Source: Aliarcobacter trophiarum LMG 25534
GTDB taxonomy: Bacteria > Campylobacterota > Campylobacteria > Campylobacterales > Arcobacteraceae
Length of the DNA stretch: 64,000 nucleotides
NCBI RefSeq assembly: GCF_003355515.1
Contig: NZ_CP031367.1
Coordinates: forward strand, 1,178,001 to 1,242,000
Direction: 5' to 3'
In this document: positions 25,434 to 33,790 of the stretch, in pieces
How positions within the stretch are numbered: the stretch's first letter is position 1
How the letters are laid out: the number at the start of each line of letters is the position of its first letter
Notes under the pieces: model-generated
Databases searched by the model: none
Told to the model about the DNA's origin: nothing
Seen by the model: the letters and a program-made list of their open reading frames with translations, nothing else
Position numbers and translations under genes: made by a program

Positions 25434-25961
25434 ATGATAAATAAAATTTTATTAAGCTTAGTATTTTGTGCAAGTTTTCTATTTGCAGATAATTTTACTT
25501 TAAAAAGTAGTGATTTAAAAGGGCAATTAACAAAGAAGCAAGAGTTTAATGGTTTTGGTTGTAGTGGAGAGAATATTTCACCACAATTATCTTGGGAAAA
25601 TGCACCAAATGGTACAAAATCATTTGCAATTACAGTTTATGATCCAGATGCACCAACAGGTTCAGGTTGGTGGCATTGGATTATTTTTAATATTTCAAAA
25701 GATAGAGCTTCAATTCCAGCTGGATTTGGAAATAGTGACTCAAAAGATGCGATACAAAGTATAACTGACTATGGTAAATCTGGTTTTGGTGGAGCTTGTC
25801 CTCCTGTTGGAAATAGAGCTCATAGATATATTTTTACTATTCATGCACTTGATGTTGAATCTTTGGATTTAGATAAAAATACAAATGCTGCAACAGTTGG
25901 ATATTATATAAATTCTCATACAATTTCAAAAGCTTCAATCATCTCTTATTATAAAAGATGA
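25434..25961 (+). CDS. YbhB/YbcL-type PEBP (Raf kinase inhibitor-like) protein, periplasmic
   Basis: The 175-residue protein has a cleavable signal peptide (about 1-18, SFLFADN). The PEBP fold is recognised by CSGENISPQLSWENAP, TVYDPDAPTGSGWWHW and the GKSGFGGACPPVG-HRYIFTIHAL pair. Bacterial members bind small anionic ligands or phospholipid head groups, and their role is unclear. The last 13 nt overlap the converging LysR gene. Its terminator seems to lie inside that gene. Confidence 0.9.
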   Translation: MINKILLSLVFCASFLFADNFTLKSSDLKGQLTKKQEFNGFGCSGENISPQLSWENAPNGTKSFAITVYDPDAPTGSGWWHWIIFNISKDRASIPAGFGNSDSKDAIQSITDYGKSGFGGACPPVGNRAHRYIFTIHALDVESLDLDKNTNAATVGYYINSHTISKASIISYYKR

Positions 25962-26833
25962 TTTTCATTAAACCTACTTTTTATAAACTCTTTAAAAGTA
26001 TTAAAAAGTAGGTTTTTTGTCTTATCTTTATGATAAATTAGATAAAACTCTCTACTTAATTTTATATTTTTAAGCTCTATTTGGAAAAGTTTTTTCTCTT
26101 CCAGCTCTTTTTTTACTGCAACTTTTGATAGAGCTGTTACACAGTTTTTATTTCCTAAAACAATAGTTTTTATCTCTTCAAACTCTTGTAACTCCATAAA
26201 TATATCTAACTCTTTTGAAATTTCACCAATATAATTTATAAAAATCTCTCTTGTTCCACTACCTTTTTCTCTTAAAATCCATCTTTTATCTATGCTATCA
26301 ATAAATGCTTTTTTAAAATAATTAAAATCACTTGTTACAACTATTAGTTCATCATTTGCAAGTTTCTCTTTTATTAAATTACTATTTTCTACATCAACTT
26401 CAATAAGTCCAATATCAAGCTCTGATTTTAAAATCTTTTCTACAATATTTGTAGAATTTATTGTGGAAATATCTAGTTTCACATCTTTATATCTTGATAA
26501 AAAATCAAAATATATATTTGGCATAATATAGTTTGAGATTGTTTTACTAGCAGCTATTTTTATATTACCAGCTAGTTTATTCTCCTCAAAGATATGTGAA
26601 GCATCAATCAAAGACAAGTAATGAAAAAGTGTTTTTTCTTTAAATAATCTTCCTTTTTCGTTTAAGATTAGTTTTTTACCAACCCTATCAAAAAGCTGTT
26701 CATTTAGACTATTTTCTAAAGATTTTATAGCTAAAGAGATTGCAGATTGACTAATACCTAATTCATTTGCAACTTGTGTAACTTGTGAATTTTCACAAAG
26801 TTTATAAAAAAAATTCAGCTCTTTTAGTGTCAT
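25949..26833 (-). CDS. LysR-family transcriptional regulator (YeiE/CysL-like by context)
   Basis: The 294-residue protein has an N-terminal winged helix-turn-helix (about 1-60, ELGISQSAISLAIKSLE) and a C-terminal two-lobed effector domain (about 88-290, with TVLGNKNCVTALSK-like hinge sequence). It is divergent from the yeiH gene across 99 nt, the usual LysR arrangement for control of its neighbour. In Enterobacteria YeiE controls yeiH in response to sulfite, and Bacillus CysL responds to sulfur state, so sulfite is a plausible effector by analogy. Which compound it senses cannot be read from the sequence. Confidence 0.88.
   Translation of the reverse strand: MTLKELNFFYKLCENSQVTQVANELGISQSAISLAIKSLENSLNEQLFDRVGKKLILNEKGRLFKEKTLFHYLSLIDASHIFEENKLAGNIKIAASKTISNYIMPNIYFDFLSRYKDVKLDISTINSTNIVEKILKSELDIGLIEVDVENSNLIKEKLANDELIVVTSDFNYFKKAFIDSIDKRWILREKGSGTREIFINYIGEISKELDIFMELQEFEEIKTIVLGNKNCVTALSKVAVKKELEEKKLFQIELKNIKLSREFYLIYHKDKTKNLLFNTFKEFIKSRFNENHLL
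25970..26018 (+). terminator. Terminator of the PEBP gene embedded in the 3' end of the LysR gene
   Basis: A perfect 13-bp stem (25970-25982 with 26003-26015) encloses a 20-nt loop and is followed by three more T residues on the plus strand. It lies just after the PEBP stop and inside the coding region of the converging LysR gene, so the codons there serve both purposes. Confidence 0.65.
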
Positions 26834-26932: not shown

Positions 26933-27958
26933 ATGAAAACAAATAATCAAGATACAAAATTACTAATAATAGGAGTATTTGCCATATTTATTTTCTCAAT
27001 AATATCAATTTTGATTTCAAATTTAACTATAGTTTCAAGTTTGGCTATAAGCCCACTAATTGTTGGTATTATTTTAGGAATACTATTTGCAAATACAGTA
27101 AAAGAGAGCTTGTTTGAAAAATATAATCAAGCTATAAAGTTTAGTGCAAAAAGACTTTTACGAATAGGTATTATCTTATATGGATTTAGACTTAGTTTTC
27201 AAGATATTGCAGAAGTAGGATTTGGTGGAGTTTTTGTGGCTTTATTCATTATTTTTTCTACTTTTATTTTAGGATATTTTATAGGAGTTAAAATTTTAAA
27301 ACTTGATCGTGAAATATCTATTTTATGTAGTTCAGGAGCGGCTATTTGTGGAGCAGCTGCTGTTATGGCTACATCAAGTGTTGTAAAAAATGAATCGTAT
27401 AAAAGTGCAATTGCTGTATCATTTGTCGTTATTTTTGGTTCTATTGGTATGTTTTTATTGCCTTTTTTATACAAAATTGGCTTAATACCACTAGATAACA
27501 ATCAAATTGGGGTCTATTTTGGAGCAGTTTTACACGAAGTTGCAAATGTAGTTGCAGCTGGTAATATGGTAAGTGAAGAAGCTACAAATAGCGCAATAAT
27601 TGTAAAGATGATTAGAGTTATGTTTTTAGTTCCATTTTTATTGCTTTTATCATATTTCTTAATTAAATTTCCAAGTTCACAAAATAGTAAAACTAAAAGT
27701 AAAATTATAATTCCTTGGTTTGCAGTTATATTTATATTTGTTGTTGCTTTTAACTCTTTTAAATTTTTAAATATAGAAATATTATCAACAATAAATTATA
27801 TAGATATGATATTTTTAACAATGGCAATGTTTGCTTTGGGATTAAATACAAATATTAAAAAGTTCAAAGAAGTTGGCTTAAAGCCTTTTTATTTAACTCT
27901 TTTATTATTTTTATATTTATCTATAATAGGATATTTTTTAGTTTTGATTTTTGTTTAA
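26933..27958 (+). CDS. yeiH: YeiH-family (UPF0324) putative sulfate/sulfite exporter
   Basis: The 341-residue polytopic protein has about ten helices. Family signatures are ISPLIVGIILGILFANT, SAKRLLRIGIILYGFRLSFQDI, CSSGAAICGAAAVMATS and GAVLHEVANVVAAGN. Members are thought to export sulfate or sulfite, but direct transport data are thin. AAAGGAG precedes the ATG. It is divergent from a LysR regulator and converges on the PhnD-like gene, with which it shares a terminator. Confidence 0.9.
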   Translation: MKTNNQDTKLLIIGVFAIFIFSIISILISNLTIVSSLAISPLIVGIILGILFANTVKESLFEKYNQAIKFSAKRLLRIGIILYGFRLSFQDIAEVGFGGVFVALFIIFSTFILGYFIGVKILKLDREISILCSSGAAICGAAAVMATSSVVKNESYKSAIAVSFVVIFGSIGMFLLPFLYKIGLIPLDNNQIGVYFGAVLHEVANVVAAGNMVSEEATNSAIIVKMIRVMFLVPFLLLLSYFLIKFPSSQNSKTKSKIIIPWFAVIFIFVVAFNSFKFLNIEILSTINYIDMIFLTMAMFALGLNTNIKKFKEVGLKPFYLTLLLFLYLSIIGYFLVLIFV

Positions 27959-27982: not shown

Positions 27983-28813
27983 TTACCAATTATTTTTGAT
28001 TAAATCTTGCTCTTTCATAGCTTCTGTTAAAACATCATAACCTTTAAGCTCCTCTTTTGTTGTAAGAACCCATCTATTAAGTCCTTCCATTTGCATCATT
28101 TTTTTTATGATTGGGTCATTTGGATCTTGACTTAAAAGCACCTCAACAAATCTTTTTTTGATACTCTTATCTAAGCTATCAAGAGCTGTAAAATTACAGT
28201 GACAATATCCCTCACTTGTATAAAAAGACTCTATTTCTCCATCTGAAAAAAGACTCTCTTCAAGAATTCTAACCCATGTACTAATACCAATAGCTCCAGC
28301 ATCAAGTTTATCGTTTTTAATATCTTCTAAAACATCAAACTCACTTCTTCCTGTATCTCCATGTTTACCTAAATCAGAGTTATATCTAATAATTTCAACA
28401 TCTTTAATACTCTCTCCTAGCTCATTTTGTAAATATTTTAGAGGTAAAATTGCAGCTTGCGCTGAATCAGCACTTCCAAGTCCAAATTTTTTACCTTTTA
28501 AATCTTGAATTGATTTTATACCACTTTTTGTTTTTGATATAAATACTGACTTAAAATCAATATCTGTATCTCTCATAACAAGTGCTTGTGCCTTATGATT
28601 ACTTAGTTCATAAGTTCTAACCCACGCAACATTTGTGTTCCAAGCAATATCAATTTTACCGCTTAATAAATACTCAATTTGTGCTTCATAATTTGAAAAA
28701 AGTATATAATCAAGTCTTACACCTTTCTCATTAAAATAATCTCTTATAATATCCCAAATAGTTACTATTTTTGGATCATAAGCAACAGATCCTACAATAA
28801 TTGGTTTAGTCAT
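27983..28813 (-). CDS. PhnD-like substrate-binding-fold protein without signal peptide
   Basis: The 276-residue protein has the type II periplasmic-binding fold of the PhnD family, seen in GSVAYDPKIVTIW, SGKIDIAWNTNVAW, FGLGSADSAQAAILPLKYL and DAGAIGISTWVRILE. Unlike ordinary members it starts directly at the first strand, with no signal peptide or lipobox, and the ATG (7 nt after AAGGA) admits no upstream extension. No ABC permease or ATPase gene is nearby. It is therefore probably cytosolic and may be an enzyme, a ligand-sequestering protein or a sensor. It ends the operon with the flavoprotein and di-iron genes, 10 nt after the flavoprotein stop. Confidence 0.8.
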   Translation of the reverse strand: MTKPIIVGSVAYDPKIVTIWDIIRDYFNEKGVRLDYILFSNYEAQIEYLLSGKIDIAWNTNVAWVRTYELSNHKAQALVMRDTDIDFKSVFISKTKSGIKSIQDLKGKKFGLGSADSAQAAILPLKYLQNELGESIKDVEIIRYNSDLGKHGDTGRSEFDVLEDIKNDKLDAGAIGISTWVRILEESLFSDGEIESFYTSEGYCHCNFTALDSLDKSIKKRFVEVLLSQDPNDPIIKKMMQMEGLNRWVLTTKEELKGYDVLTEAMKEQDLIKNNW

Positions 28814-28823
28814 TCTTTCATCC

Positions 28824-29951
28824 TTATAATATTTCTTGATTTGTTAAAGCTTTTCCAAGCCAAGTTGTAAGTACATCACTACTTGGTGCCATAACTTGTG
28901 CAGCTAATGAATCTCTTAAAAGCCGTTCTATTGGTAATCTTTTTGCATAAGCAGTACCTCCACCAATCTTCATAGCTTTTGTACAAACATCAACTGCCAT
29001 ATTTGAAGCATTTAATCTAGCAGCAATTACATTTGCTAAAGCTGCTAGATCAGCATCAACTACACTTTTTGCTGCACTAAGAGTTAAAAATTTTGCACTT
29101 ATAGCTTTTGTATAAATATCTGCTAAATGATTTTGAACTGTTGGAATATTGCAAAGAGTCGAATTATCGCTATATGTTCTATTCATTGAGTATTCAATAA
29201 TAGTATTACAAGCATTTAAAGCAACTCCACTATAAACTGCAGCTAATCCAATAATAAAAAATGGTCCAACTATATTCATAATTTGTTCTAATCCACTTCC
29301 AGAAGCTCCAATTCTAAATTTTTCATCAATTTTTACATTCTCTAAAATCATTGGACAAGAAGCATTTCCTCTCATCCCAAGACCATTCCAAGCGCTATGT
29401 TCAAAAGTAATTCCTTCTAAATCTTTTGAAACTAACCAATTATCTAGTCCTTCACTATCAAATGAGTTTGCATCTATTAAATAATAATCAGCATATTGTG
29501 CAGATGTTACAAAACTTTTTTTACCACTCATATTTAAATTTTGTCCATCTTTTGTAACTTTTATCTCTGGTATATAAAAATGTGTTCCCGTACCACTTTC
29601 ACTATATGCAAGAGCCAACATCAATTCACCATTGGCAATTTTTGGTAAAAACTCTTTTTTTAACTCTTCACTACCATAAGTTACTAAACAATTTGTAGCA
29701 ACATTATGCATCATGTAACATAGAGCTGTTGTTGCACAATAGTTTGCAAAAGCTAATATAGTTTGTGTATGCTCATAAAAACCAAGCCCCATTCCACCAT
29801 ACTCTTTTGGTACAAGTAAACCTGTGATTTTTTTATCTTTTATAAATTTAAAACTTTCAATTGGGAATTTTGCTTCACAATCTACATCTTGTGTATATGG
29901 TGCAATACTCTCTTTCGCAAACTCTATCATTTCATTATATAATTCTGACAT
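28824..29951 (-). CDS. Acyl-CoA dehydrogenase-fold flavoprotein, DszC/SfnC-like
   Basis: I take the ATG at 29951 (375 residues) as the start because it has AAGGAAG upstream; a frame extension to 30014 would overlap the preceding gene by 53 nt. The three-domain acyl-CoA dehydrogenase fold is clear: VPKEYGGMGLGFYEH, ALAYSESGTGTHF and the C-terminal AMKIGGGTAYAKRLPIERLLRD. At the place of the catalytic Glu of the dehydrogenases (YEGT) it has QVMAPSSD, so it lacks the usual alpha-proton base. Flavin monooxygenases such as DszC and SfnC, which attack organosulfur compounds, share this trait. It sits 10 nt after the di-iron gene. The substrate is unknown. Confidence 0.82.
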   Translation of the reverse strand: MSELYNEMIEFAKESIAPYTQDVDCEAKFPIESFKFIKDKKITGLLVPKEYGGMGLGFYEHTQTILAFANYCATTALCYMMHNVATNCLVTYGSEELKKEFLPKIANGELMLALAYSESGTGTHFYIPEIKVTKDGQNLNMSGKKSFVTSAQYADYYLIDANSFDSEGLDNWLVSKDLEGITFEHSAWNGLGMRGNASCPMILENVKIDEKFRIGASGSGLEQIMNIVGPFFIIGLAAVYSGVALNACNTIIEYSMNRTYSDNSTLCNIPTVQNHLADIYTKAISAKFLTLSAAKSVVDADLAALANVIAARLNASNMAVDVCTKAMKIGGGTAYAKRLPIERLLRDSLAAQVMAPSSDVLTTWLGKALTNQEIL

Positions 29952-29961
29952 TTTCTTCCTT

Positions 29962-31203
29962 TTACATAAAATTTGGGGTGTGAGCTTTTGAAATATCATT
30001 TGCCAAATCTTCATCTATACCTATATTTACCAACCTCTTTACTCTATTTTCATTCATTTTCTCTTTTAACTCTTCTAATAAATCAAAACCTCTTTTATAA
30101 GCATTTGGTTCATCACTACCTGCTGCTAAAATAGCCAAAGCTTCAAGTAATATAGATGATTCTCCATTTATCTCATCCATAAACTCTTTTCTTTTAAATG
30201 CAGTATTTTTTAAAGCATTTATTCTATTTGGATTTTGTTCAATTGCTGATTTTACATGCTCTATTCCATAAGCAACATGTCGCATTTCATCTCTTTTTGC
30301 AAGTCTTATAATCTTTTTTGTTGCTTCATCAGGCATATATTTTTCTAAAAAGCTTAATAAATCAACAAAAGTTCCCTCTCCCATAACATGAAGCAAAAAA
30401 GAACTTTTAATATAATCATCCTCTTTAAATAGTGAAAAAAGCGATCTTTGAGTAACTCCACTTGAATATTGAAAACCACCTCCATTTGCATTTGCTCTTT
30501 TTGTAAACACTTCTATATGTCTTGCTTCATCATTCATTAAAGAGGATAAAAATAGAGGAACCTCCATATAATATGGATTTATTTTACTTATAAATTTTGC
30601 TGGAATATACAAAGCTGAAAACTCATTTTCAACTAAATATGTCATTATTTGACAAATGGCTCTTTCTAAAACAGGATTTAAATCAGGAATCTCATTCCAA
30701 GCTATATCAGTTGTTGCATTCCATTGAAGACTTTTCCCCTCTTCATAAAGAATAGATACTGGATTTGACCAAACTTGCTCTTTATGTGATAGTTCAAAGT
30801 CATATATAGGGCTATTTTCTTCAACTACAATTCCTCTTGTGAGAAGTCCATTATTTTGTGGTGCAATAGATAATATTTCATCACTTAAATTCAAATCTTT
30901 TAATTTTGGATTTCCTATGTCTATGCCTTGCATTTTTTTGCCCCAAGAGGCTTTTTGTAAAAAGCTATCTTTTTTTATCTTTTGTATTTTATACGAGTAT
31001 TGTTGTTTTAGTCTTTCCCTTCCTAAATAGATATGCCCCCTTAATTTTGCCCAGCCACGAAGTTCAGTTTCAATATTTTCTTTTTGTGAAATAACTTCAA
31101 TTATTTCATAAGTATTGCAGAGCAAAAAAGCATTTTCAAGTCTTAAAAACAGTGCTTTTGACGGTGGTAAATTACCTGTAAATATAGAGATAGAGTGGTT
31201 CAA
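29962..31203 (-). CDS. Fusion of TusA-like domain and ferritin-like di-iron protein
   Basis: The 413-residue protein starts at a TTG after GGAA. Residues about 1-75 resemble TusA: NTYEIIEVISQKENIET, ELRGWAKLRGHIYLGRER and YSYKIQK match the strand-helix-strand pattern, but the catalytic Cys-Pro is Pro-Pro-Ser. Residues about 170-330 are a four-helix di-iron domain with likely ligands E192 or E194, E226 and H229 (DEARH), E276 (GEG) and E306 and H309 (DEMRH). Such domains act as oxygenases, N-oxygenases or oxidases. It leads the operon with the flavoprotein and the PhnD-like gene. I know of no named protein with this domain order; the function is unknown. Confidence 0.75.
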   Translation of the reverse strand: MNHSISIFTGNLPPSKALFLRLENAFLLCNTYEIIEVISQKENIETELRGWAKLRGHIYLGRERLKQQYSYKIQKIKKDSFLQKASWGKKMQGIDIGNPKLKDLNLSDEILSIAPQNNGLLTRGIVVEENSPIYDFELSHKEQVWSNPVSILYEEGKSLQWNATTDIAWNEIPDLNPVLERAICQIMTYLVENEFSALYIPAKFISKINPYYMEVPLFLSSLMNDEARHIEVFTKRANANGGGFQYSSGVTQRSLFSLFKEDDYIKSSFLLHVMGEGTFVDLLSFLEKYMPDEATKKIIRLAKRDEMRHVAYGIEHVKSAIEQNPNRINALKNTAFKRKEFMDEINGESSILLEALAILAAGSDEPNAYKRGFDLLEELKEKMNENRVKRLVNIGIDEDLANDISKAHTPNFM

Positions 31204-31264
31204 ATGAATATTCCAAATTATAATTTAATTTTGAATCATTCAATAAATTTTAAATTTAGTGATG

Positions 31265-31298
31265 AAAATCTCAACCTGAGACCTAAGAATGAGATTTT
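31265..31298 (-). promoter_or_regulatory. Inverted repeat in the leader of the di-iron operon
   Basis: A perfect 9-bp inverted repeat (31265-31273 with 31290-31298, arms AAAATCTCA/TGAGATTTT) with a 16-nt loop lies about 60 nt upstream of the operon start, in the 159-nt gap before comEC. It could be an RNA hairpin or an operator. I could not match it to a known riboswitch, and nothing else stands out in the gap. Confidence 0.35.
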
Positions 31299-31362
31299 AA
31301 CATATAAAAATAAGAATTAAATAAAAATTTAAATTTAGTTTTCAAATAATATAACTTGAAGA

Positions 31363-31988
31363 CTAAATATAGAGATAAAGATTAAATCCTATCATCAAAA
31401 TATTTAATACAAAAAAAGCTTTTTTACTCCAAATAGATAAAAATGAGAATAAAATATATAAAATAAAAAAATATATTGGGGTAAATACTTCATAAACATA
31501 TATTTTATTTTCTAAAAAGATTTTCAAATAAGTATCAAAATAGTGTGAAATATAAAAACTATGTGCAACTATCTCAAGCGGATAAAAAATTGTAAAGAGT
31601 ATTGTAATAGGAATAGAGTAAAACTGTTCTAATGCTGTTTGACCAAAGAAATAGTGAACTATTGGATTAAAGATTAAAAACATCCATATATTAAAAAAGA
31701 TATAGAGTAAAATCTTATTTGAACTTTTAAAATATTGAATAAACAAATATATATAAAAAACAGCAATTATAGAGAACCAAAAACCAATATTAAAAATATA
31801 TTGTGGAAAAAAAGAGATAACAATTAAAAAGGTATATAACAAAGTAATATATGATATAAGCTTTATATTGCTTCTTAAAAGATAAACTCCCATACAAAAA
31901 AGAACAAAAGCCCTATATGTGTAATTAATTTGTATATAATAAAATTACATAAAACTATTATTTTGTGGTTTTGTTATATACTTTACAA
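31363..31988 (-). pseudogene. comEC: comEC, C-terminal fragment cut off by the IS
   Basis: From the left IS end the reading frame shows residues like those of a short Campylobacterota ComEC, the inner-membrane channel for DNA uptake. It starts VKYITKPQNNSFM, meets an in-frame TAA at 31945-31947, then continues FYYIQINYTYRAFVLFC and a 176-residue membrane region with FNIGFWFSIIAVFYIYLF, which is the family's core. The fragment cannot be joined in frame with the N-terminal part: two extra bases remain even if the IS is removed. Together with the nonsense codon this shows decay beyond a simple insertion. Confidence 0.8.
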
Positions 31989-32078
31989 TGGAATGACCCC
32001 AAAAAAGTAGACAGAAATTTATTCAGTTAATTAAAATAACAATTTAGAGAAAATTGTAAACAATTGAAGGAATTAAAA

Positions 32079-32363
32079 ATGGCAAGAAGAGAATATAGTG
32101 AAGAGTTTAGAAGAGATGCTGTAAAACAAGTTATAGAAAATGGATATGGGGTTGTTGAAACAGCTGAGAGGTTAGGTGTCCATTATGATTCTTTGAGAAA
32201 CTGGATAAAAAAATACAAATCACCAGAAGCTGAAGTAGAAATAAAAAAAACTCAAGATACAACAGCTGAAATAAAAAGATTGCAAAAAGAATTAAAGAGA
32301 GTTACAGAAGAGAGGGATATTTTAAAAAAGGCCGCAGCGTACTTTGCAAACAACCCAAATTAA
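32079..32363 (+). CDS. IS3-family transposase OrfA
   Basis: The 94-residue protein has an N-terminal helix-turn-helix (about 5-50, EFRRDAVKQVIENGYGV and LGVHYDSLRNWIKKY) that recognises the IS ends, and a C-terminal leucine-zipper helix (EIKRLQKELKRVTEERDILKKA). The ATG at 32079 has GAAGGA upstream; a TTG 15 nt earlier is less likely. It ends with TAA at 32361-32363, past the slippery site that leads into orfB. Confidence 0.9.
   Translation: MARREYSEEFRRDAVKQVIENGYGVVETAERLGVHYDSLRNWIKKYKSPEAEVEIKKTQDTTAEIKRLQKELKRVTEERDILKKAAAYFANNPN
32324..32330 (+). other. Programmed -1 frameshift site for OrfAB
   Basis: The heptamer A-AAA-AAG lies in the orfA frame at codons Leu-Lys-Lys near its end. 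A -1 slip there leads into an open frame (GRSVLCKQPKLKYAFIKEYQ) that runs without a stop into orfB. The resulting OrfAB fusion is the active transposase in IS3 elements. Confidence 0.8.
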
Positions 32364-32410
32364 AGTACGCATTTATAAAGGAGTATCAAATACAGTACAC
32401 AATCAGAAGA

Positions 32411-33247
32411 ATGTGTACTGTATTGAAAGTTCATCCTAGTGGGTATTATAAATGGTTAAAACAACCTATTTCAAATTTAGAGATTGAAAATCAACAAATT
32501 TTACAAGAGATAAAAAAAGCATATAGAGAGTCAAATGGGATATATGGATATAGAAATATTCATAAAGATTTAAAGGCTTCAAATATACATGTAAATAAGA
32601 AAAGAGTTGCAAGATTAATGAAAGAAGCAAAACTTTGTGGAATAGGAAATTATAAAAGAAAACCAAAGCATAAGGCTGGTTCAATTCATAAAGCACATCC
32701 AAATCATTTAAAACAATGTTTTTTAACATATAAACCAAATGAATCTTGGGTTAGTGATATCACATATATCAGAACTTATGAAGGATGGTTATATTTAGCT
32801 ACAGTTATAGATCTTTATTCAAGAAAAATAATTGGTTGGGCAACAGGACATAGACAATCAACATCTTTAATTATTAAAGCTTTGAAAAAAACAACTCACA
32901 GAATTAAAAATCATAAAGTAATTCTTCATTCAGATCAAGGTAGCCAATATAGTTCTTATGAATACCAAACATTTTTAAAGCATCATAATATTATCCCAAG
33001 TATGAGCCGTAGAGGTAATTGTTATGATAATGCAGTAGCAGAGAGTTTTTTTAAGACATTAAAAAAAGAATTAGTTAGAAAAACTATATTTCATACAAGA
33101 GCAGAAGCTAGAGATAAAATATTTGAATATATAGAAATGTTTTATAACGCAAAAAGACGACATAGTTTTTTAGATTTTATAAGTCCAAATGAATTTGAGA
33201 AAAGATACAATGATAGTGTTACTCAACCAAAGGTGTTAACTGATTAA
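32411..33247 (+). CDS. IS3-family transposase OrfB (DDE domain)
   Basis: The 278 residues from the internal ATG contain the integrase-type catalytic core: WVSDITYIRT (first Asp), ILHSDQGSQYSS (second Asp) and GNCYDNAVAESFFKTLKKE (Glu). The conserved C-terminal FYNAKRRHSFLDFISPNEFE is present. The open frame extends upstream of the ATG to the slippery site at 32324, so the main product is probably the OrfAB fusion. All three catalytic residues are intact. Confidence 0.93.
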   Translation: MCTVLKVHPSGYYKWLKQPISNLEIENQQILQEIKKAYRESNGIYGYRNIHKDLKASNIHVNKKRVARLMKEAKLCGIGNYKRKPKHKAGSIHKAHPNHLKQCFLTYKPNESWVSDITYIRTYEGWLYLATVIDLYSRKIIGWATGHRQSTSLIIKALKKTTHRIKNHKVILHSDQGSQYSSYEYQTFLKHHNIIPSMSRRGNCYDNAVAESFFKTLKKELVRKTIFHTRAEARDKIFEYIEMFYNAKRRHSFLDFISPNEFEKRYNDSVTQPKVLTD

Positions 33248-33277
33248 AAAAGTATCTACACTCTTGGGGTCATTCCA

Positions 33278-33790
33278 GTGAAAACCTGACAGAGCTACAA
33301 CATGTGCTACTCGATAAGCTGTAATAACATCTCTTAATTCACTAGAAACTGGAATTGCTAAAAATAGAGCATTAAAAAGCTCTTTTATCATCAAATCATC
33401 GTGATTTTCTTCTATGTTTTTAACAATTTTTTCTTTTACACTATACTTTTTATCTAATCTATCAAAGTACAGAATTTTTGTAAAAAACCCTTTAAGGTAA
33501 TTTAGAAAATCAACTTCTCTAGTATCAATTGCGAGTTCAATATAATCCAAAATATCAAGCTCTTCGTTTTTAGAAATAGTTCCAAAAAACTCAAAACCTT
33601 CACCTTTTAACTTAAGAATATCAAACTTCTCTTTTTTATATATTTTTAAAATAGTAGCTTTTGATACAAAAACTGTCTCTTCTTTGAAATTTTGAAAATC
33701 AATATATTTAAAAGATATATTTACAAAAAAAATCAGAAGTAAAAATAGAATAAAAAATATCTCATTTTTAAACTCTAAAAATTTTTTCAT
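33278..33790 (-). pseudogene. comEC: comEC, N-terminal fragment interrupted by the IS
   Basis: The 171 codons from the ATG at 33790 encode an N-terminal membrane helix (about 11-27), an OB-like soluble region and the start of the competence domain with AYRVAHVVALSGFH. That last motif is the ComEC/Rec2 signature, normally followed by LG and the first channel helices. Immediately after His171 the frame enters the IS right end and stops 13 codons later. DNA uptake through this channel should be lost unless another copy exists elsewhere. Confidence 0.88.

Follow-up and report, generated by a model that had tools for sequence, protein, structure and literature searches.

A conserved TusA/di-iron, flavoprotein and PhnD-fold gene trio of Campylobacterota and its plausible link to selenium

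What purpose is served by a di-iron enzyme, a flavoprotein and a binding-fold protein that are encoded side by side and recur together in many genomes? The question is raised by a window of 64,000 nucleotides from Aliarcobacter trophiarum LMG 25534 (NZ_CP031367.1, positions 1,178,001 to 1,242,000; coordinates below refer to this window), in which three minus-strand genes follow one another. The first, FER (29962..31203), encodes a fusion of a TusA-like N-terminal domain to a ferritin-like di-iron domain. The second, ACD (28824..29951), encodes a flavoprotein of the acyl-CoA dehydrogenase fold that lacks the catalytic Glu, and the third, SBP (27983..28813), a cytosolic protein of the PhnD fold, a type 2 periplasmic-binding-protein fold. 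The trio is real and conserved, and a function in selenium metabolism is plausible from its sequence and genomic context. Our leading reading is that the trio serves selenium metabolism in those Campylobacterota that use selenocysteine (Sec), most likely by mobilizing selenium from an organic, probably methylated, compound for SelD. We hold this reading tentatively, at slightly less than an even chance.

An earlier note on this DNA, made from the letters alone, had proposed a three-gene cluster with gaps of 10 nt, and all three open reading frames (ORFs) were found. The spacing depends on the start of ACD, which as mechanically listed opens with an ATG at 30014 and overlaps FER. The start is probably at 29951 instead, because homologues begin at residue ∼20–22; 10 nt then separate FER from ACD, and another 10 nt ACD from SBP. 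FER begins with TTG, and this start is probably genuine, since the aligned Arcobacteraceae relatives also read TTG behind a GGAG-type site.

The same note had left conservation as a matter to be checked, and the trio survives the check. FER was found in 21 of 104 Arcobacteraceae and in 23 of 299 sampled genomes of the order, and SBP in 33 of 249 genomes of a phylum-wide sample of Campylobacterota. The order FER-ACD-SBP is present in 29 of the 33 SBP-bearing genomes. It is kept in all 20 other Arcobacteraceae loci and in loci of more distant families, while the remaining neighbours vary; across the genera inspected, no conserved third-party neighbour was found. An ABC ATPase considered as a partner in Helicobacter-type loci was dismissed as background that follows ribosomal-protein and elongation-factor genes. 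One SBP genome (G476) has a degenerate or rearranged unit, and a real in-frame TAA interrupts FER in another genome (G033, locus L037). A contig scan with FER, a method that reaches close relatives only, matched only Campylobacterota (one match being labelled just ‘bacterium’), and relatives of SBP were absent from the viral contigs searched. The trio stands as a conserved unit in itself, with a patchy distribution.

A clue to its role is its association with the selenocysteine machinery. SelA, the selenocysteine synthase, was found in 22 of 23 FER genomes and in 115 of 276 others in the order sample (Fisher p 1.8e-7, a value that ignores phylogeny), and the single FER genome lacking SelA is a 75%-complete metagenome-assembled genome. 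In the phylum sample, all 33 SBP genomes carry SelA, against 154 of 216 others (Fisher p 3.6e-5, likewise blind to phylogeny). Five families of the order sample contain cluster genomes. For two of them, f7 and f16, the sampled genomes with SelA number just one and two, respectively, and cluster-bearing genomes are among these. Gene order points the same way. In one genome (G230) selD lies directly upstream of FER, in a selD-FER-ACD-SBP run, and selA-selB are found at a distance of ∼7 kb. In Miltoncostaea, an ACD-SBP pair has selB-selA-selD in its vicinity, no more than 10 kb distant. The Miltoncostaea island (L097:524-14847) also carries DoxX, an Rv1681-like radical SAM protein, a glycosyltransferase and DUF2064. 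A. trophiarum itself has selA, selB and tRNA-Sec together, with selD also present, and its FdhA contains Sec, encoded by an in-frame TGA with a selenocysteine insertion sequence (SECIS). Both marks of a selenium-utilization gene are found: occurrence mainly in Sec genomes and, at a few loci, synteny with sel genes.

A second line of evidence comes from three SBP genomes that lack FER. At these loci (L118:8521-12140, L120:7516-11218 and L121:8073-11595), ACD and a divergent SBP are followed by a core MetE-like methyltransferase and an OsmC-like protein, in genes that overlap or abut. Among the 249 genomes, the MetE-like enzyme was found in exactly these three. Its zinc and homocysteine motifs are readable in the sequence; only the core of MetE is present, and the immediate neighbours are ACD-SBP and the OsmC-like gene, with no DUF1852 adjacent. 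A possible counterpart is the folate-independent methionine synthase MesD/MesX, in which a core MetE-like enzyme also works alongside an accessory protein; MesD requires O2 (PMC7857596), whereas the MetE-like version here sits in genomes without FER. Complementation of methionine synthase was rejected as an explanation for the trio, as full-length MetE occurs in 70 of 104 Arcobacteraceae, this genome included, and does not track it. Beyond the phylum, a Paracoccus homologue of the MetE-like enzyme (L170:5641-7122) is a fusion of TusA to MetE; selA and trxB come after it, and genes for a cysteine desulfurase, TusA and DsrE before it. The TusA domain of the fusion aligns with the N-terminal domain of FER (hhalign probability 95).

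Methyl-selenium metabolism offers precedents for such a replacement. In Methanococcus, SdmABC demethylates dimethylselenide under selenium starvation, and TusA/D transcripts likewise rise on selenium depletion (PMC11097638). Type I MGCs, which belong to the UroD/MetE superfamily, have been proposed to act in methyl-selenide salvage (PMC10418091). Our loci share with these systems the link to the Sec machinery, and their MetE-like variant is of the same superfamily (PMC10418091, PMC11097638). They differ in lacking a corrinoid protein, the precedents being systems of corrinoid methyltransferases, and in most of them a di-iron enzyme of the O2 type is combined with a flavoprotein and a protein of the SBP fold. 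The selenium candidates YedE, YedF, LysR_Se and DUF3343 were also recognized through genomic association with sel genes, and YedF is SirA/TusA-like (PMC5322559, PMC4607533); FER, ACD, SBP and the MetE-like and OsmC-like proteins are not on that list, and the trio as a selenium-linked unit is not described in the literature searched. Because SelA co-occurrence, sel synteny, the MetE-like replacement and these precedents converge, we favour a role in selenium supply.

Is FER the kind of enzyme that such a role would need? Residues ∼4–75 adopt the beta-alpha-beta-alpha-beta-beta topology of TusA in an AlphaFold model (predicted local distance difference test score, pLDDT, 85; predicted template modelling score 0.89). 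Pfam TusA matched the single sequence with E=0.045, and a FER family profile matched Escherichia coli TusA in the PDB with E=1.5e-4. The fold is that of TusA, but the hallmark of a TusA sulfurtransferase is missing: the catalytic Cys motif GLxCPxP is replaced by GNLPPS, with no conserved Cys there in homologues. The C-terminal domain (residues ∼140–395) has the ferritin-like di-iron fold. E194 (in the helix 177–205), E226xxH229, E276 and E306xxH309 are invariant in 34 aligned homologues, which completes the di-iron ligand set of four carboxylates and two His in two ExxH motifs. Both the Cys-less TusA-like fold and the paired ExxH motifs had been read correctly in the earlier note. The C-terminal tail HTPNFM is also conserved, with a single P-to-A exception. 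A short FER homologue without the TusA domain, from a Xenorhabdus plasmid (L098:9941-10699), is clustered with condensation-domain and carrier proteins and is a possible biosynthetic di-iron relative.

The closest solved folds to FER are aldehyde-deformylating oxygenase (ADO), azoxy synthase VlmB and R2-like ligand-binding oxidase (R2lox), with Z scores of ∼18–21 and 12–20% identity. They share with FER the ferritin-like di-iron core and its two ExxH motifs; FER differs in its fused TusA-like domain and conserved HTPNFM tail. The likeness is one of fold, not of function. It nonetheless lends some colour to the idea that the trio belongs to an unrelated oxidative pathway, such as N-oxygenation or aldehyde processing, and that its correlation with selenium reflects a shared microaerobic, formate-using lifestyle. 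The Sec trait is indeed reported to accompany a low-oxygen lifestyle (PMC4607533). A shared lifestyle would not account well for direct sel synteny in two phyla, for the selA gene that neighbours the MetE-like homologue of a third phylum, or for trios in families where SelA is rare, and we consider this explanation improbable.

ACD matches PF02771, PF02770 and PF00441, the N-terminal, middle and C-terminal domains of the acyl-CoA dehydrogenase fold, all over cut-off. Where solved dehydrogenases have their YEGT-type catalytic Glu region, ACD reads MAPSSD, extending by one residue the APSSD of the earlier note. M-A-P is invariant in 22 homologues, actinobacterial ones included, and the next residue is S or T. 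Since this Glu is replaced and the alternative base position (the isovaleryl-CoA-dehydrogenase-like Glu) is not conserved among homologues, ACD is unlikely to be a conventional acyl-CoA dehydrogenase. ‘DszC/SfnC-like’, as it was first called, was a loose label: the best family model is NF049984 (Rv1679/FadE16), at 270 bits and below its cut-off of 600, and acryloyl-CoA reductase and 3-sulfinopropanoyl-CoA desulfinase rank next. These features support a reading in which an O2-using di-iron enzyme, as FER is predicted to be, works together with a non-classical flavoprotein.

SBP is predicted with a pLDDT of 93.5 to have the PhnD-type fold, and its nearest solved relatives are PhnD1 and PtxB. No signal peptide was found at its N-terminus (MTKPIIVGSVAYDPK) and there are no transporter genes in the unit, as first proposed. 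The pocket-type motifs RDTD, GSxDSAQA, GKHGDTGRSE and HCNF are partly unlike the phosphonate-binding loops of PhnD1. Its best NCBIfam model is NF049985 (Rv1680 ‘SBP-like’), with 327 bits against a cut-off of 400.

By these best-matching families, ACD and SBP appear to belong near the mycobacterial Rv1679 (FadE16)/Rv1680 pair. The two pairs share the adjacency of ACD and SBP, the MAP motif, and the SBP motifs RDTD and GKHGDTGRSE. They differ in that the Campylobacterota proteins score under the curated cut-offs, and in that the actinobacterial loci examined have, in place of FER, an Rv1678 membrane protein, a radical SAM protein (Rv1681) or both.

Upstream of FER, the earlier note had reported an inverted repeat, and its inner part proved to be conserved. 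This hairpin, H1 (31268..31282, minus strand; GTCTC-AGGTT-GAGAT), is placed at the 5′ end of the transcript because it directly follows a -10-like promoter element (TGTTAAAAT; 31294..31302, minus strand), whose G.TA..AAT columns are conserved in 14 Arcobacteraceae. Almost every Arcobacteraceae and Helicobacter-type locus has this 5-bp stem, and the three FER-less loci have it ahead of ACD. It occurs in 24 distinct versions with double changes at all five pairs. The stem search demanded pairing, so the 100% of paired cells is in part selection and the double changes are the informative part. The loops AGGTT, CGTGT and AGGGT all have G at position 2. In epsilonproteobacteria, SECIS elements are hairpins of 5/6 bp whose loop contains an invariant G (PMC4607533), and H1 has this shape; the fdhA SECIS of the source genome reads TTGCC-GGTGT-GGCAA. 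The resemblance is suggestive only, being compatible with selenium control but not proof of it, and H1 may alternatively be a DNA operator. A SECIS element acts in the selAB leader of E. coli, and a study by Thanbichler and Bock (2002; cited in PMC8124441) is on SECIS RNA in translational control in that species.

An RNA model of the leader, R1, which matches 31204..31284 (minus strand) in the window, finds it in the cluster genomes of Arcobacteraceae (it is not reported in G026). Since R1 finds the leader only before the trio and in one relic, we assign it no further target genes, and a riboswitch regulon was rejected; other weak matches look like chance. The relic, in G009 (L163:5641-5720, minus strand), keeps the leader at 72 bits, with the three genes gone. 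In another genome (G019) a second copy of the leader lies at a contig end (L166:5754-5806). A search of Rfam 15 with the leader matched no family. Two further mechanisms were set aside. The 5′ arm of H1 can pair with the Shine-Dalgarno region in most relatives, though the window, L022 and L025 are exceptions, and shuffled sequences reach such pairing too often for sequestration of the Shine-Dalgarno site to be a conserved switch; the short upstream ORFs of the leaders show no conservation of their peptides.

The immediate surroundings of the trio suggested a different answer at first. The earlier note saw the genes converging on a LysR/YeiH pair and proposed oxidative cleavage of an organosulfur or organophosphorus compound, with sulfite exported by YeiH. 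The arrangement is as described: YeiH (26933-27958, plus strand; 278.9 bits against a cut-off of 232.6) converges on SBP, and the LysR gene (25949-26833) is divergent from YeiH. The LysR protein scores 205 against a cut-off of 480 for YeiE, and 178 against 250 for the selenium-type LysR. In favour of organosulfur chemistry, YeiH and the YeiE-like LysR adjoin the trio in seven Aliarcobacter genomes, FER has a TusA-like domain, the partners in the FER-less loci are OsmC- and MetE-like, and Dsb/CcdA-type neighbours occur in Actinobacteria. Membership of YeiH in the system is what fails. YeiH adjoins the trio at only 7 of the 21 Arcobacteraceae loci, and the adjacency disappears outside Aliarcobacter, the inspected loci of other families included; within Arcobacteraceae, genomes with the cluster carry YeiH little more often than the rest (17 of 21 against 51 of 83). 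YeiE and YeiH form a sulfite-stress pair in their own right: in Salmonella the former regulates the latter in resistance to sulfite (PMC12880088). YeiH/LysR is for these reasons a neighbour and not part of the trio unit. The YeiH genes at the locus (26933-27958 and its equivalents in L022, L025 and L028) come in two divergent versions, of 84–87% and 56–60% identity, beside the same LysR (78–82% identity), an apparent replacement in place that also counts against the sulfite-export reading. Organosulfur cleavage moreover leaves the SelA association unexplained, and we now think it unlikely. On the other side, just upstream of the trio, lies an IS3-type transposase pair (32064-33247). It is flanked by ORFs 31363-31893 and 33236-33790, which look like parts of one interrupted gene; the latter has VVALSGFH near its end and is ComEC-like.

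If selenium supply is the function, the trio might work as follows. SBP would bind a small substrate or intermediate in the cytosol. FER would then oxidize the substrate with O2, for example by oxidative Se-demethylation, and its Cys-less TusA-like domain could serve in docking or in selenium/sulfur handling. ACD might carry out a redox or lyase step, and the selenium released would pass to SelD for conversion to selenophosphate. In FER-less genomes, the zinc-dependent core MetE-like methyltransferase and the OsmC-like protein may take the place of FER in an O2-independent version, a substitute that would suit low-O2 lifestyles. The SECIS-like hairpin of the leader may couple expression to selenium status. 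A bolder form of this proposal has selenium acquisition built on two interchangeable demethylating modules, an O2-dependent TusA-di-iron enzyme and an O2-independent MetE-like one, each with a flavoprotein and a cytosolic binding-fold protein, and a SECIS-like leader that reports Sec-tRNA/SelB status; taken whole, this seems to us unlikely.

The direction of selenium flow could also be reversed. The trio might act downstream of SelD, using selenophosphate or selenide to build a small molecule or cofactor that contains selenium; FER would then perform an O2-dependent oxygenation. The selD-FER-ACD-SBP run would fit this, as would the need of Sec-using genomes for SelD and the biosynthetic roles of di-iron relatives such as VlmB. 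Carrier proteins, ligases and exporters are not recurrent in the unit, and the MetE-like replacement and methyl-selenium precedents fit supply better; we therefore judge a downstream role to have a rather small chance of being right.

Several observations nevertheless weigh against selenium supply. The co-occurrence statistics are uncorrected for phylogeny, many Sec-using genomes lack the trio, and among the FER loci inspected just one has an adjoining sel gene. When 20 kb are scanned with a 15-nt model built on the leader hairpins, the true fdhA SECIS comes only sixth among 21 matches (11.0 bits, E ∼2). To our knowledge, Mycobacterium tuberculosis, which has the relatives Rv1679–Rv1681, has no Sec system, so the tie of ACD-SBP to selenium is not universal. 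The substrate and each chemical step of the scheme are conjecture.

A review notes that a high-affinity transport system for selenium has yet to be identified (PMC9312934). If our favoured reading is true, a trio tied to Sec use in Aliarcobacter and its relatives would explain a missing input to SelD. It would also represent new di-iron chemistry, and would provide a first functional handle on the Rv1679/Rv1680 family of mycobacteria.

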